From: an uncultured Collinsella sp.
GTDB taxonomy: Bacteria; Actinomycetota; Coriobacteriia; Coriobacteriales; Coriobacteriaceae
DNA length: 64,000 nucleotides
NCBI GenBank assembly: GCA_949285915.1
Contig: CASDZW010000002.1
Location: 1-64,000 of the forward strand
Direction of reading: 5' to 3'
Part shown: piece by piece, positions 37,224 to 41,720 of the stretch
Position numbering within the stretch: position 1 is the first letter of the stretch
Layout of the letters: every line of letters begins with the position of its first letter
Position numbers and translations under genes: made by a program
The notes under the pieces: generated by a model
Told to the model about the DNA's origin: nothing
Databases searched by the model: none
Seen by the model: only the letters and a program-made list of their open reading frames with translations

Positions 37224-38603
37224 CTAGCGCGTGCGGCGGCGCAGCGCGGCTGCCGCACCAATGGCGCCCACACCGACAGCACCGCTCGCGCCGGCTGCCA
37301 TGAGCGCGGGGTCGCCCGTCTCGGGCAAGCTACCGGCATTGTTCTTGCCCTCAGCACCGTTGTTCTTCTTATTTGTAGTGTTGGCAGGCTTCTGCTCCTC
37401 AGTCGTCTGCTCCCCAGCGGTCTGGCCGCCTTGTCCGCCACCCTGCGTCGAGTCCGTCACATGAACGGCAACGGTGCGGACAACCGTCTTCTCCTCAATC
37501 GCACGGGCATCGCTCTGGACCCGGAACGTGCCGGTGAGCGTTACCGTTGCGTCGCCAACTCCCACCAGATCCAATCGGACCATGTCGGCAGTATCGCCTT
37601 TGCCCACGCGGACAACGCTCTCGTCACTCGAAACAGCGCTAAGCCCCACATACTCAACCGCAGAGCCCTCATCAAAAATGATCCCATTGACGGCGAGACC
37701 GAGCTGGCAAGACCCCGCACCAGCGGCAAGGTCATAGGAAATACCCGTCACATCAAAGTTGTTGTCGCCATCGCATTGGACCCCATCGGAACCCGTCGCA
37801 AACGCAACGCTCGAATCTTCGATAATGGCGTCGTAGCCTGGAACGGTATAGGTCATGCGCGCTTCGCCCAGCACGGTCACGCCATCCTCACCGTACACCG
37901 TCGCGATGAGATCCGCCGTGCCCGGCTTTAGTGCCTCAACATAGCCGGCCTCGTTGTTGACGGAAAGCACCGCAGAATCGCTCGAGCTAAAGACCACCTT
38001 GGTGGTAACCTCCTCGCCCGCAGGGTACCCTGCAGCATTTGCCGGCGCGACGCGCCAGTTCGCCAACTCCAGACGCACGCCCAAACCTATTTCCGCGTCG
38101 CCAGTACTGGAGGTGGTTGACCACTCCGAGTACGCATACTTGCCCTCGACAGGCCCCGCAGCTCCCGTATACTCCACAATCTGATAGCTGAGACGTGCGA
38201 CCTCGGCGCCGTTGAGGTAAGCGATGATGTCGGCGGAGCCGGTCGAAGGTGTCTTCATCTCGAGGCCGTCGGAAGAGATCCACAGCACGTCGGGATTGCT
38301 CGAAGCCCACGTCACGCCCTCGGTGAGCACGCTGGTCCCTCCGTCGCGATGCTCGAACAGCTGGAAAAGCCAATCGTTATCCCCACGATGCCACTCCGTA
38401 TCGGAGTAGAGCTTGTACTCGCCATCGATAAACAGGCCATTGATAGAGTAGGTCACCTCACCGCCCGCCTTTGGTGCGGTAACAGCCGCATCCGTCGCAG
38501 GCGCGGCGGCCTCCGCGGCAAACGTGGCAACGGGCGCGCTGATCGCGAGCGCGCCGGTGAGTCCGGCGACGATAAACGGTTTGGCAAAACGCGATGAAGT
38601 CAT
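37224..38603 (-). CDS. LPXTG-anchored surface protein with Ig-like (BIG2-type) repeats
   Basis: A 459-aa exported protein. A signal peptide (about 1-29) ends near ATFAAEA. The body holds repeated Ig-like segments: VTWASSNPDVLWISSDGLEMKTPSTGSADI and VVFSSSDSAVLSVNNEAGYVEALKPGTADLIATVYGE, the pattern of bacterial Ig-like group 2 domains. A Gln/Gly/Asn-rich linker leads to LPETG (426-430), a hydrophobic segment and RRRTR, the sortase sorting signal. It is probably attached to the cell wall; adhesive function is unproven. ATG at 38603 follows GAGGGGG. It lies downstream of the split-kinase operon, with 205 bp between. Confidence 0.88.
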   Translation of the reverse strand: MTSSRFAKPFIVAGLTGALAISAPVATFAAEAAAPATDAAVTAPKAGGEVTYSINGLFIDGEYKLYSDTEWHRGDNDWLFQLFEHRDGGTSVLTEGVTWASSNPDVLWISSDGLEMKTPSTGSADIIAYLNGAEVARLSYQIVEYTGAAGPVEGKYAYSEWSTTSSTGDAEIGLGVRLELANWRVAPANAAGYPAGEEVTTKVVFSSSDSAVLSVNNEAGYVEALKPGTADLIATVYGEDGVTVLGEARMTYTVPGYDAIIEDSSVAFATGSDGVQCDGDNNFDVTGISYDLAAGAGSCQLGLAVNGIIFDEGSAVEYVGLSAVSSDESVVRVGKGDTADMVRLDLVGVGDATVTLTGTFRVQSDARAIEEKTVVRTVAVHVTDSTQGGGQGGQTAGEQTTEEQKPANTTNKKNNGAEGKNNAGSLPETGDPALMAAGASGAVGVGAIGAAAALRRRTR

Positions 38604-38808: not shown

Positions 38809-39873
38809 CTAATCTAGCTTGAGGACCACATCGACACGGAGCATTCCGTCCCGCTGCTTGAGTGCGAGGGTGCCCTCACGGCGCTCGGCAAGGTCGTGGA
38901 CGATGGTGAGACCCCAGCCGTGTTCGGGGAGCAGCGAGACCTCCTCGGCGCCCGTCCCGTCACGGCGCGCGTGTCGCAGGCGAGGTGGCATGCTGCGCGG
39001 CTTCAGTTGGTCGATGGCAGCCGCCTGCTCCGGGGTGCAAGGGTTTTCCACTGCGAGGGCGAGGTAGCCCTGAGCCGCGCGCATGCGCACCGTAACCGTA
39101 GGCGCCGCGCACGCGGGCGCATCCTCTCCACACCGCACTCCACCTTTCGATACCGTTTGCTCGCGGCCGGCCGCCTCTTCCGTTTCCGCCTGAGCCGCCG
39201 CGGTGAGGGCGTTATCCACCAGGTTAGAGATGACCGCGCAGAGCTCGGCATCGGTGATGCCCATATCCGCTGGAACCTCGGCATGCACGACGAGCTGCGC
39301 ACCCCACTCCTTTGCCTGCGCCATCTTGGCCTTGAGAAGGGCATCAACAACGGGGTGCGCGCAGAGACGCCCGCCAAAACGCGGAAGCGCCTCCTCGGTG
39401 CGCGCCAACCCCTCCCGCGCCGCCGCCGCGTCGCCCGACATCAACGCATCGGTGATACGGGTGAATTCCGTTGCATAACGCATGCGGTCTTGCCGAGCCA
39501 CTGCGAGCGCCTGCTCCGTTTGGGCGAGGTGCACCTGCTGCAGCTCAACCTGCTCCTCCAGTGCCCGCGCGCGAGCGCGGCTCGTCTCGAGCTCGCCCGC
39601 CTCGGAGATACCGGCAAGGAACCACGCATTCGACACGGCGGAGCCCGCACCGGCAACTACCGCCGCGAGCTCGAGAAGCACCACGCTGGCTGACGCGTCC
39701 GCAGACCCCGCGAAAGCAATAATCATCAGCGTCGCCACCTGCCATGCAGCCATGAGCGCCGTGAGCGCGCGGCTGCCAATAGGAAGCGTGCGGTATCTGC
39801 AGGCGAGCACTGCGAATGAGATGCCCACGGCAAGCGTTGCCGCACATACGAGCGCGAGAGCGAGCTCCCTCAT
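38809..39873 (-). CDS. AgrC-like kinase half with ATPase domain but no phosphoacceptor His
   Basis: A 354-aa GHKL protein. It has about three N-terminal membrane segments (1-90), a coiled coil (95-128), a DHp-like segment, and a HATPase_c domain with N-box ISNLVDNAL (215-223) and G-box GWGLTIVHDL (319-328). In the DHp segment, aligned by DALM and GD with its neighbour, R132 stands where the phosphoacceptor His should be (Y133 for Asp, F137 for the second His). HPVVDALLKAKM (173-184) is the usual AgrC/GHKL linker. It overlaps the preceding gene by ATGA (4 bp), so the two are translationally coupled and probably act as a heterodimer. Confidence 0.82.
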   Translation of the reverse strand: MRELALALVCAATLAVGISFAVLACRYRTLPIGSRALTALMAAWQVATLMIIAFAGSADASASVVLLELAAVVAGAGSAVSNAWFLAGISEAGELETSRARARALEEQVELQQVHLAQTEQALAVARQDRMRYATEFTRITDALMSGDAAAAREGLARTEEALPRFGGRLCAHPVVDALLKAKMAQAKEWGAQLVVHAEVPADMGITDAELCAVISNLVDNALTAAAQAETEEAAGREQTVSKGGVRCGEDAPACAAPTVTVRMRAAQGYLALAVENPCTPEQAAAIDQLKPRSMPPRLRHARRDGTGAEEVSLLPEHGWGLTIVHDLAERREGTLALKQRDGMLRVDVVLKLD

Positions 39874-40757
39874 GAGGACTCACCGTCCTCGCGGGCGAGC
39901 AGATCGGCCATCTCGCGTGCATAGGCGGCTGCTCGCTCGAGGTCGCCTTTCGCCATAAGGGCATCGATCGCTTGCAGGTGGCTGCGTGCGTCGTGACGAA
40001 GTTGCGCGGTGCGCACCGTGGCGCGCATGACGTGGTCGTACGCCGCAAGACAGGCGTCCAGCTGCTCTTGCGCCACGCACGTCTGCGCCCGTGCGATTGC
40101 GGTGCGACGCGCCCGCTCCACCTGCACCAACAGAACCACCAAGATCAACGGTAATGCGATCATGCACGCCAAGCCCGCGCGTGCAAGAGGATGGGTGGAT
40201 GAGATGCCCTCTGCCACGAACAGGGAGTACATGACGCTCGCCAGCATCGCGCAGCAAAGGGCGGTCACCGCAAAACGAGGCAGGACAACGTTTATGCGAT
40301 CGCCGTGCGTCCAACGCGCCATGAACGCGCACACGAGGCGCCCGCAGGCGACAAGAACAGCAAACGCGAGCAGGCGGAGTGCGAGGAGCAGCACCGGGTC
40401 CTCAGCCATCACCGCCGCAGCATCGAGGGGCTTTCCTACAAGCGTGAGAAACAAGACGCCGGTACCCTCGCCTGCAATCGCCGCCCCGATGCAGAGCGCC
40501 GTGGCTACGAGACGGCGTGCCACGGGGCCGCGCATCAAAATCGGCGGTAGGCTGAACATGCAGAGCAGGAAGTGTATGCGCGCGACTGCGGGATATACCT
40601 CGCCCGTGACAAGATCGAACGCCATTGCCGCGCCGCTCGCGACAAGATAGACTGTACGGCCGCGCATGGGTAGCGCCATAGCCATATTCCAACACATGAC
40701 AAACGTGTTGGCACCGCCGACAAGCGTGATAAGCACCTGAAGCGCACCCTCGCCCAT
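39870..40757 (-). CDS. AgrC-like sensor half with phosphoacceptor His but no ATPase domain
   Basis: A 295-aa protein with about six membrane segments (residues 5-210), then a coiled coil and the DHp motif LRHDARSHLQAIDALM, where H255 is the expected phosphoacceptor. The protein ends about 40 residues later; the N- and G-boxes are absent. Complete AgrC/GHKL kinases are about 420-440 residues, so this one lacks the ATPase module encoded by the next gene. It starts 7 bp after the LytTR regulator stop (ATG at 40757, AGGTG upstream) and ends in an ATGA overlap. The signal sensed is unknown. Confidence 0.82.
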   Translation of the reverse strand: MGEGALQVLITLVGGANTFVMCWNMAMALPMRGRTVYLVASGAAMAFDLVTGEVYPAVARIHFLLCMFSLPPILMRGPVARRLVATALCIGAAIAGEGTGVLFLTLVGKPLDAAAVMAEDPVLLLALRLLAFAVLVACGRLVCAFMARWTHGDRINVVLPRFAVTALCCAMLASVMYSLFVAEGISSTHPLARAGLACMIALPLILVVLLVQVERARRTAIARAQTCVAQEQLDACLAAYDHVMRATVRTAQLRHDARSHLQAIDALMAKGDLERAAAYAREMADLLAREDGESS

Positions 40758-40764
40758 CGTACAC

Positions 40765-41529
40765 CTACAGCGACCGGCGCACGAACGACACAAGGCGCTC
40801 GGCAAACGTTTTGCGACAGCGCTGACTTACCGGAAGATGCGTACCGTCCGTAAGAACGAGCTCACGACCGGTAAACTCCGTCACATACGCCAAGTTGACG
40901 AGAAAGCTCTTGTGGCAGCGTACAAACTGGTCGGGCAGCTGCATCTCGAGCTCCGATATGCGCGCATAGGCCTCCACCGTGCGCGAGCGCTCGTGGATGC
41001 GCACCTTGCGACGGTCGCTCTCGATATAGCGCACCTCGTGCGGCGCGATGCGGATGAGTGAGGTGCCCTGATGGACCAGCAAGGGCTCTGCTCGCTCCGT
41101 ATCCAGCGCGTCAACGGCACGGGTGAGCGCTGCGTTGAGCTCGTCTTGTACCACGGGCTTGGAGAGAAACCACGTGTGGCGCGTGTGGTACGCGGCGGGC
41201 GCGTACTCAAGATAGGCCGAGACGTAGATGACCTGCACGGGCGCGGCGGACGGTATGAGCCGGCGGACGAGGTCGATGCCGTTAACGCCGTCCGCCAGCC
41301 GCACATCGACAAAGAGAATGTCGGGCAGCGCCGCCGCTGAAGGCGAGCGATGAGGGTCGGCATCCAGGGGGTGCTGAGAAGCATCATCCGAAGGTGTCCA
41401 CCGGACGTTGTCGACCGCCCGCCACGCGGTCGCGAGCTCAAGACGCTCCGCCATGGGCGAGGCGTCGATCATGCGAGCGAGCTCGGCGGCATGCGCCGCA
41501 TCGTCCTCCACTATGGCCACCGTATACAT
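40765..41529 (-). CDS. LytTR family response regulator (AgrA-like)
   Basis: A 254-aa regulator. The receiver has acidic residues in VAIVEDD, phospho-acceptor D75 in DILFVDVRLADG, and LSKP with the conserved Lys. An extra ~25-residue, Pro/Ser/Asp-rich loop (about 43-68) is inserted before D75. The C-terminal LytTR DNA-binding domain has IRIAPHEVRYIESDRRKVRIH and FVRCHKSFLVNLAYV. It heads an operon with the two kinase halves. ATG at 41529 is chosen for MYTVAIVEDD; its Shine-Dalgarno is a run of nine G (41536-41544, minus strand). Confidence 0.9.
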   Translation of the reverse strand: MYTVAIVEDDAAHAAELARMIDASPMAERLELATAWRAVDNVRWTPSDDASQHPLDADPHRSPSAAALPDILFVDVRLADGVNGIDLVRRLIPSAAPVQVIYVSAYLEYAPAAYHTRHTWFLSKPVVQDELNAALTRAVDALDTERAEPLLVHQGTSLIRIAPHEVRYIESDRRKVRIHERSRTVEAYARISELEMQLPDQFVRCHKSFLVNLAYVTEFTGRELVLTDGTHLPVSQRCRKTFAERLVSFVRRSL

Positions 41530-41535
41530 AGAGCA

Positions 41536-41544
41536 CCCCCCCCC
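41536..41544 (-). promoter_or_regulatory. G9 tract serving as ribosome-binding site
   Basis: Nine consecutive G on the minus strand lie 6 nt before the regulator ATG and are the only purine-rich element there. Slippage in this tract would change Shine-Dalgarno length and spacing. Confidence 0.6.
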
Positions 41545-41720
41545 GCGCGATCCGTTACTGTCCAATGCAGGGAATAGGGCTCCATACTACCATCGGAAAG
41601 CTGCGGAAAAGCGCTATCGCGGCGGACGATGTCACAACCGCGCGGTTATCCGTCACGAGCGATGCGGCGTGCCGCGCCCACCCCCGCGCGCAGCAAAGCG
41701 TCCGGCATCGGACGGGTTCG

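Follow-up and report, generated by a model that had tools for sequence, protein, structure and literature searches.

A predicted split sensor kinase of two membrane proteins, encoded beside a LytTR response regulator in Collinsella and related bacteria

A regulator and two complementary proteins at one locus

The window, a 64,000-nucleotide stretch of DNA from an uncultured Collinsella sp., carries on its minus strand a three-gene set in the order regulator, H, and K (Table 1). The initial annotation had given the open reading frames, strand, and coordinates of all three genes correctly. The ATGA overlap that it described between H and K was also seen in the sequence, and translational coupling of the two genes is possible through this overlap.

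Table 1. Positions of the gene set, of neighboring features, and of related loci in other contigs.
Feature	Position	Strand	Basis or remark
LytTR response regulator	40765..41529	-	Pfam LytTR E=9e-22 and Response_reg E=4.2e-8
H protein, 295 aa: membrane part and His255-bearing DHp hairpin, ATPase domain absent	39870..40757	-	
K protein, 354 aa: membrane segments, DHp-like part without acceptor His, GHKL ATPase	38809..39873	-	
His255-Asp256 codons, H box of the H protein	39990..39995	-	Counted from translation
Ser259 codon of the H protein	39981-39983		
ATGA overlap, H stop and K start codons	39870..39873	-	Read in sequence
Non-coding stretch upstream of the regulator	41530-41660		
Perfect palindrome AACCGCGCGGTT	41636-41647		
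Gene downstream of the set	37224-38603		
Second, diverged regulator-H-K set	L057:2929-5594		Window's own genome, contig C7
K without an H match	L062:5140-6210		Genome G024
H/K pairs that look kinase-dead	L137:3691-5423; L141:2896-4964; L142:2699-4419; L218:3284-5033		

The regulator exceeded the Pfam cut-offs for both of its domains (Response_reg, 33.8 vs 30.2 bits; LytTR, 77.6 vs 22.6 bits), and Asp75 in ILFVDV, counted from the translation, is presumably its phosphate acceptor. It had been called AgrA-like, which holds for the domain layout but not for membership of AgrA itself, because the score against the NCBIfam AgrA model NF046049 was 36.6 bits with a cut-off of 400. A search for AgrB gave no match in the window's own genome, which is 82% complete; the built-in control of this search matched 1 of 14 genomes, and no match was over the cut-off.

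H keeps the acceptor histidine and ends without an ATPase domain

The putative acceptor of H is His255 within QLRHDARSH, and the chain stops 40 residues after it. In the AlphaFold2 model of the window H (pLDDT 83.3), we found seven long helices, the seventh running into the DHp hairpin. The main helices of this model span residues 2-28, 34-51, 56-74, 79-107, 121-149, 159-183, 190-269, and 273-294; His255 sits in the seventh helix (190-269), and the chain ends with the hairpin partner (273-294). About six membrane segments had been counted for H in the initial annotation, a number that agrees neither with the seven helices of the model nor with hydropathy, which at a threshold of 1.6 detected just five clear segments.

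The window H matched no Pfam family at E≤0.01 (three matches, all at E≥0.065) and no NCBIfam family at E≤1, and therefore such systems are easily missed in annotation. When the model was used for a fold search, nothing matched at E≤0.001. Across the family, SPOB_a, a DHp domain, was matched by 13 of 20 H proteins and an ATPase family by none of the 20 (E≤0.01), in agreement with the earlier statement that H255 lies in a protein devoid of an ATPase domain. The acceptor histidine was kept in 96/96 H proteins, with Asp as the next residue in 91/96 and Asn at position +4 in 91/96, and most H proteins carry the motif HDxxN. The window H has Ser259 in the +4 column, where both close orthologues have Asn. 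The motif HE/DxxN/T is linked to phosphatase activity in a report on split CheA proteins (PMC3591291).

K keeps the ATPase domain and lacks the acceptor histidine

The second protein had been described as having an intact ATPase, and this was supported by a match of the window K to HATPase_c_5 above the Pfam cut-off (25.8 vs 22 bits). Its ATP-site residues are N217 and N221 in the N-box and H318-G319-W320-G321 in the G-box. HATPase_c_5 was matched by all 16 K proteins of the family that were searched and SPOB_a by none of them (E≤0.01); the N-box Asn pair was kept in 72/78 K proteins, and the G-box GxG in 74/78. By hydropathy, K contains three hydrophobic segments and is itself a membrane protein.

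Profile-profile alignment placed Met131 of K at the position equivalent to His255 of H, and Arg130 of K on R254 of the RHD motif in H. The initial annotation, which had put Arg132 there, was right that no histidine occupies this position and was one residue off. The acceptor column corresponds to column 128 of the K profile, in which only 3/78 K proteins have His. In none of these three is the His followed by an acidic residue, and two belong to the window's genus. When single-chain kinases were aligned to the K model, which has a His in this column in one of its 16 training rows, the H-box His fell in column 128 in 18/19 cases (near-duplicates L030 and L031 excluded). Histidine is also frequent in columns 152 (18/78), 170 (45/78), 221 (24/78), 276 in the G-box (73/75), and 290 (44/77) of K, none of which is at the acceptor place. 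As for an alternative acceptor in K, which the initial annotation had considered, no His column was conserved in the DHp-like part (n=78). Judged by sequence, K keeps a DHp-like part without the acceptor His, and the acceptor His and the catalytic ATPase lie on two separate proteins, the arrangement that defines a split histidine kinase.

Distribution and census of the family

A protein search of 79 related genomes recovered two nearest orthologue pairs, with 90-93% identity for H and 84-87% for K, as well as more distant H/K pairs. Both nearest orthologues share the split, and no uninterrupted kinase was present at the locus in the nearest relatives, the point on which the initial annotation had made its proposal depend. 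dN/dS among three Collinsella-group orthologues was 0.21-0.33 for H and 0.31-0.50 for K. The set is patchy, because two genomes of the window's genus (G001 and G004), both 99% complete, gave no H or K match. The window's own genome carries a second, diverged regulator-H-K set.

Among 395 genomes assigned to the order by the search tool, 127 had a match to the H profile at E≤1e-4, the weak matches including single-chain kinases, and in 63 of the 395 the best H-profile E value was below 1e-17. In a phylum-wide sample of 396 genomes, 16 matched at E≤1e-8; 13 were from the order, some of them with single-chain kinases, and the remaining three were from another family, with frames of 457-482 aa. 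A scan of named genomes yielded 42 loci in Collinsella, Eggerthella, Adlercreutzia, Enterorhabdus, Olsenella, Thermophilibacter, and others; Collinsella, Eggerthella, and Thermophilibacter represent three families of the class Coriobacteriia (NCBI taxonomy). Regulator-H-K sets were also found in Bifidobacterium italicum, B. pseudolongum, and B. pullorum (L161, L162, and L179). Six loci, with Firmicutes among their sources, carry single-chain kinases (L173-L175, L181, L182, and L185).

We compiled a census of 82 non-redundant clusters from Coriobacteriia and the three Bifidobacterium species. It drew on larger loci and the window, since the first set had truncated loci; duplicates were removed, L122 was counted once, and eight single-chain clusters were set aside beforehand (seven by script and L221, 455 aa, by hand). 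Similarity to the window proteins was used to find the clusters. The profiles, in turn, derive from members of the family, and the counts are therefore a description of it rather than independent tests. Separate neighboring H and K genes were present in 67/82 clusters, a recurrence that goes beyond chance, subject to this way of finding the clusters. H and K were fused in one open reading frame in 8/82, of which seven are clean fusions (L106 and L107 are 97% identical); in the doubtful one, L110/L149 (532 aa), the receptor helices are mostly missing and an internal Met stands at the start of K. The two complementary halves are conserved together, and natural fusions join them, as in L148 of Adlercreutzia equolifaciens. 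The other seven clusters consist of three with K alone, two with regulator and H, and two with H alone; L061, L075, L076, and L220 are at contig ends. A regulator of the LytTR family accompanied 70/82 clusters, and two or three H genes lay beside K in 15/82, in several gene orders; L165 and L171 each have two H genes and a single K. The H-to-K junction overlapped by exactly four bases in 22/51 cases of an earlier set, when the first possible start codon was taken.

Common ancestry of H and K, and natural fusions

In the comparison of profiles, columns 161-292 of H were homologous to columns 41-170 of K with 98% probability, which covers the TM-plus-DHp part. By this shared homology, H and K look like duplicates with complementary losses. 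In a tree of the ATPase domains, built on an earlier, smaller set with the partial L023 left out, 71 split or fused K proteins branched as a single clade (support 0.911) that excluded all 21 single-chain kinases sampled. Five clean fusions belonged to that set, and they clustered together within the split clade. Taken with the finding that K is homologous to the C-terminal half of H, the tree suggests that a kinase was duplicated, that the copies lost opposite parts, and that they were later joined again. The Bifidobacterium sets (L161, L162, and L179) were near those of Olsenella and Thermophilibacter in this tree and were possibly acquired by transfer. An alignment that pooled separate H rows with the fusions was dropped because the H C-termini were misplaced onto K.

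Where H and K are cleanly fused (seven cases), the K portion starts beyond its first membrane segment, at profile position 28-63. Such a start is consistent with a cytoplasmic ATPase, an argument that is weakened by the 21/70 split K proteins that also begin at profile position 24 or later. A model of a fused relative (pLDDT 74.9) had a pTM of 0.43 and does not establish a mixed bundle. In Foldseek, the best solved folds for this fused relative were those of the AgrC kinase module, 6e52 (E=1.3e-7) and 6e95 (E of about 1e-7), and the K-family profile matched 6e52 at E=3.5e-5.

Exceptions in the family

G024 is a genome in which K is intact and in which neither an H match nor a close LytTR regulator was found. 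The obligate pairing of the two proteins that the initial annotation had put forward is called into question by this retention of K. The K gene stands after purine-synthesis-like genes, recognized by eye.

The second N-box Asn is missing in 6/78 K proteins, and four of them (L137, L141, L142, and L218) are also without the G-box GxG, although H and K are still side by side there. In the H proteins of these four loci, RHDxxN is replaced by LHHVLAN, LHHVLVN, RHSLAN, or RHSLAS, and the Asp after the His is lost. Members of this kind could not work by a two-subunit kinase route.

H and K as a probable two-subunit sensor kinase

We consider with good confidence that H and K make up a two-subunit, AgrC-like sensor kinase, with receptor and acceptor functions in one subunit and catalysis in the other. 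H would be the receptor and acceptor, with its seven membrane helices feeding the DHp hairpin that bears His255; K would be the catalytic subunit, made of a short membrane part, the ATPase domain, and, between them, a DHp-like hairpin minus the His. The hairpins of H and K would pack against each other, the simplest form being a mixed four-helix bundle. A signal sensed by H would then lead the K ATPase to phosphorylate His255 of H, from which the phosphate would move to Asp75 of the LytTR regulator. Free H, which in most cases carries HDxxN, may strip the phosphate from the regulator, as free CheA3 does. The contact between H and K, the direction of phosphotransfer, the stoichiometry, the phosphatase activity, the signal, and the target genes are the parts of this scheme that we infer; candidates for the complex are a heterodimer, H2K2, or H2 meeting K2.

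It is also conceivable that H and K are both used but not together: H would accept phosphate from a single-chain kinase, and K would act as a homodimer on another substrate or as a non-kinase ATPase. Spo0B and Hpt proteins are acceptors for another kinase in this way, and the resemblance of H to Spo0B-type DHp domains, the K without H in G024, and the DHp-like hairpin of K, which by itself suffices for a homodimer, fit such a division. We regard separate use as unlikely, since it leaves unexplained why H and K are adjacent in 67/82 clusters and joined in seven clean fusions, and why K has so widely kept its N-box Asn pair yet has His in the acceptor column in just three proteins. Quite improbable is a role of K as a regulatory ATPase or pseudokinase that tunes H, as a phosphatase switch or scaffold, rather than phosphorylating it. 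The four loci that lost the ATP-site motifs while H and K remained adjacent speak for such a role; against it, these motifs are present in most K proteins (the N-box in 72/78), and no other kinase was found in the mapped clusters, which were searched with the H, K, and regulator profiles only. A single kinase gene broken recently in this strain, or cut by an assembly frameshift, was rejected as scarcely credible: the slight overlap of the two genes and the single-chain relatives in other genomes of the order would suit it, but the two nearest orthologues carry the same split, the split form extends across three families, both genes have dN/dS values below 1, and K, with membrane segments of its own and a DHp-like part homologous to that of H, is not the remainder of one chain cut in two.

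Within the two-subunit reading, a cluster that has two or three H genes would let different receptors act through a single catalytic subunit and a single regulator. The seven-helix H proteins would be plug-in receptors, two or three of them served by one membrane-bound K and all feeding one LytTR regulator, a proposal that we make tentatively and hold to be quite possible. It is comparable to cytokine receptors sharing a JAK and to chemoreceptors sharing CheA. If it is true, gain or loss of a receptor alters the inputs without new kinases.

Comparison with known systems

The H/K sets resemble AgrC/AgrA in the fold of the kinase module (6e52, 6e95, and 4bxi) and in the layout of the regulator. 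In AgrC, one chain holds both the His and the ATPase, unlike H/K, where the His box and the ATPase are on separate chains, so that these proteins fall outside the single-chain type. The loci L173-L175 (Oscillibacter, Peptococcaceae, and Lachnospiraceae) are similar to the H/K sets in that a regulator is followed by a kinase with an RHD box and a related ATPase, but these kinases, of 413-426 aa, have both parts in one chain.

In Mycobacterium tuberculosis, Rv0601c and Rv0600c are an H-box protein and an ATPase protein encoded beside one regulator, TcrA. Both kinases are reported to cooperate with TcrA (PMC9274095). In Rhodobacter sphaeroides, neither CheA3 nor CheA4 autophosphorylates alone, CheA3 becomes phosphorylated in the mixture, and free CheA3 is a phosphatase (PMC3591291). 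The acceptor His and the catalytic domain are on two proteins there as in H/K; CheA3 and CheA4, however, serve in chemotaxis, the former carrying P1 and the latter P3-P4 (PMC3591291), whereas H and K are both predicted membrane proteins of AgrC/Spo0B type beside a LytTR regulator, and some of their clusters have several acceptors per catalytic subunit. For Hik36-Hik43 of Synechocystis, which function with Rre6, two-hybrid contacts and mutants have been reported (PMC7656254). These two proteins likewise form a histidine kinase jointly, but their genes are in the tax3/pilG cluster and they consist of HPT and CA parts (PMC7656254).

Split kinases as a kind are thus already described, and the H/K family is a variant of the split kinase. 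The initial annotation had regarded the system as undescribed; this does not apply to the kind (PMC3591291), but searches of open-access literature brought up no description of the H/K family. Split kinases are described as rare, with 11 split CheA proteins against 470 complete ones, in a report that asks what drove the emergence of the split form (PMC3591291). The present family is predicted to be membrane-bound, with acceptor and catalytic genes that are separate, unequal in number in 15/82 clusters, and fused in some lineages. The question of emergence could be tested in its natural variants, which include split and fused forms, one or several receptors per engine, and apparent loss of the ATP site.

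Sequences flanking the gene set

The non-coding stretch upstream of the regulator is conserved in three Collinsella-group genomes, and the perfect palindrome AACCGCGCGGTT lies inside it. An operator search found no direct repeats upstream of the regulator or of the downstream gene. Just before the regulator start codon there is a run of 9 or 10 G, the length of which varies among the three Collinsella-group genomes. The gene downstream of the set encodes a protein with an LPETG-like C-terminus and an Ig-like match below the cut-off.
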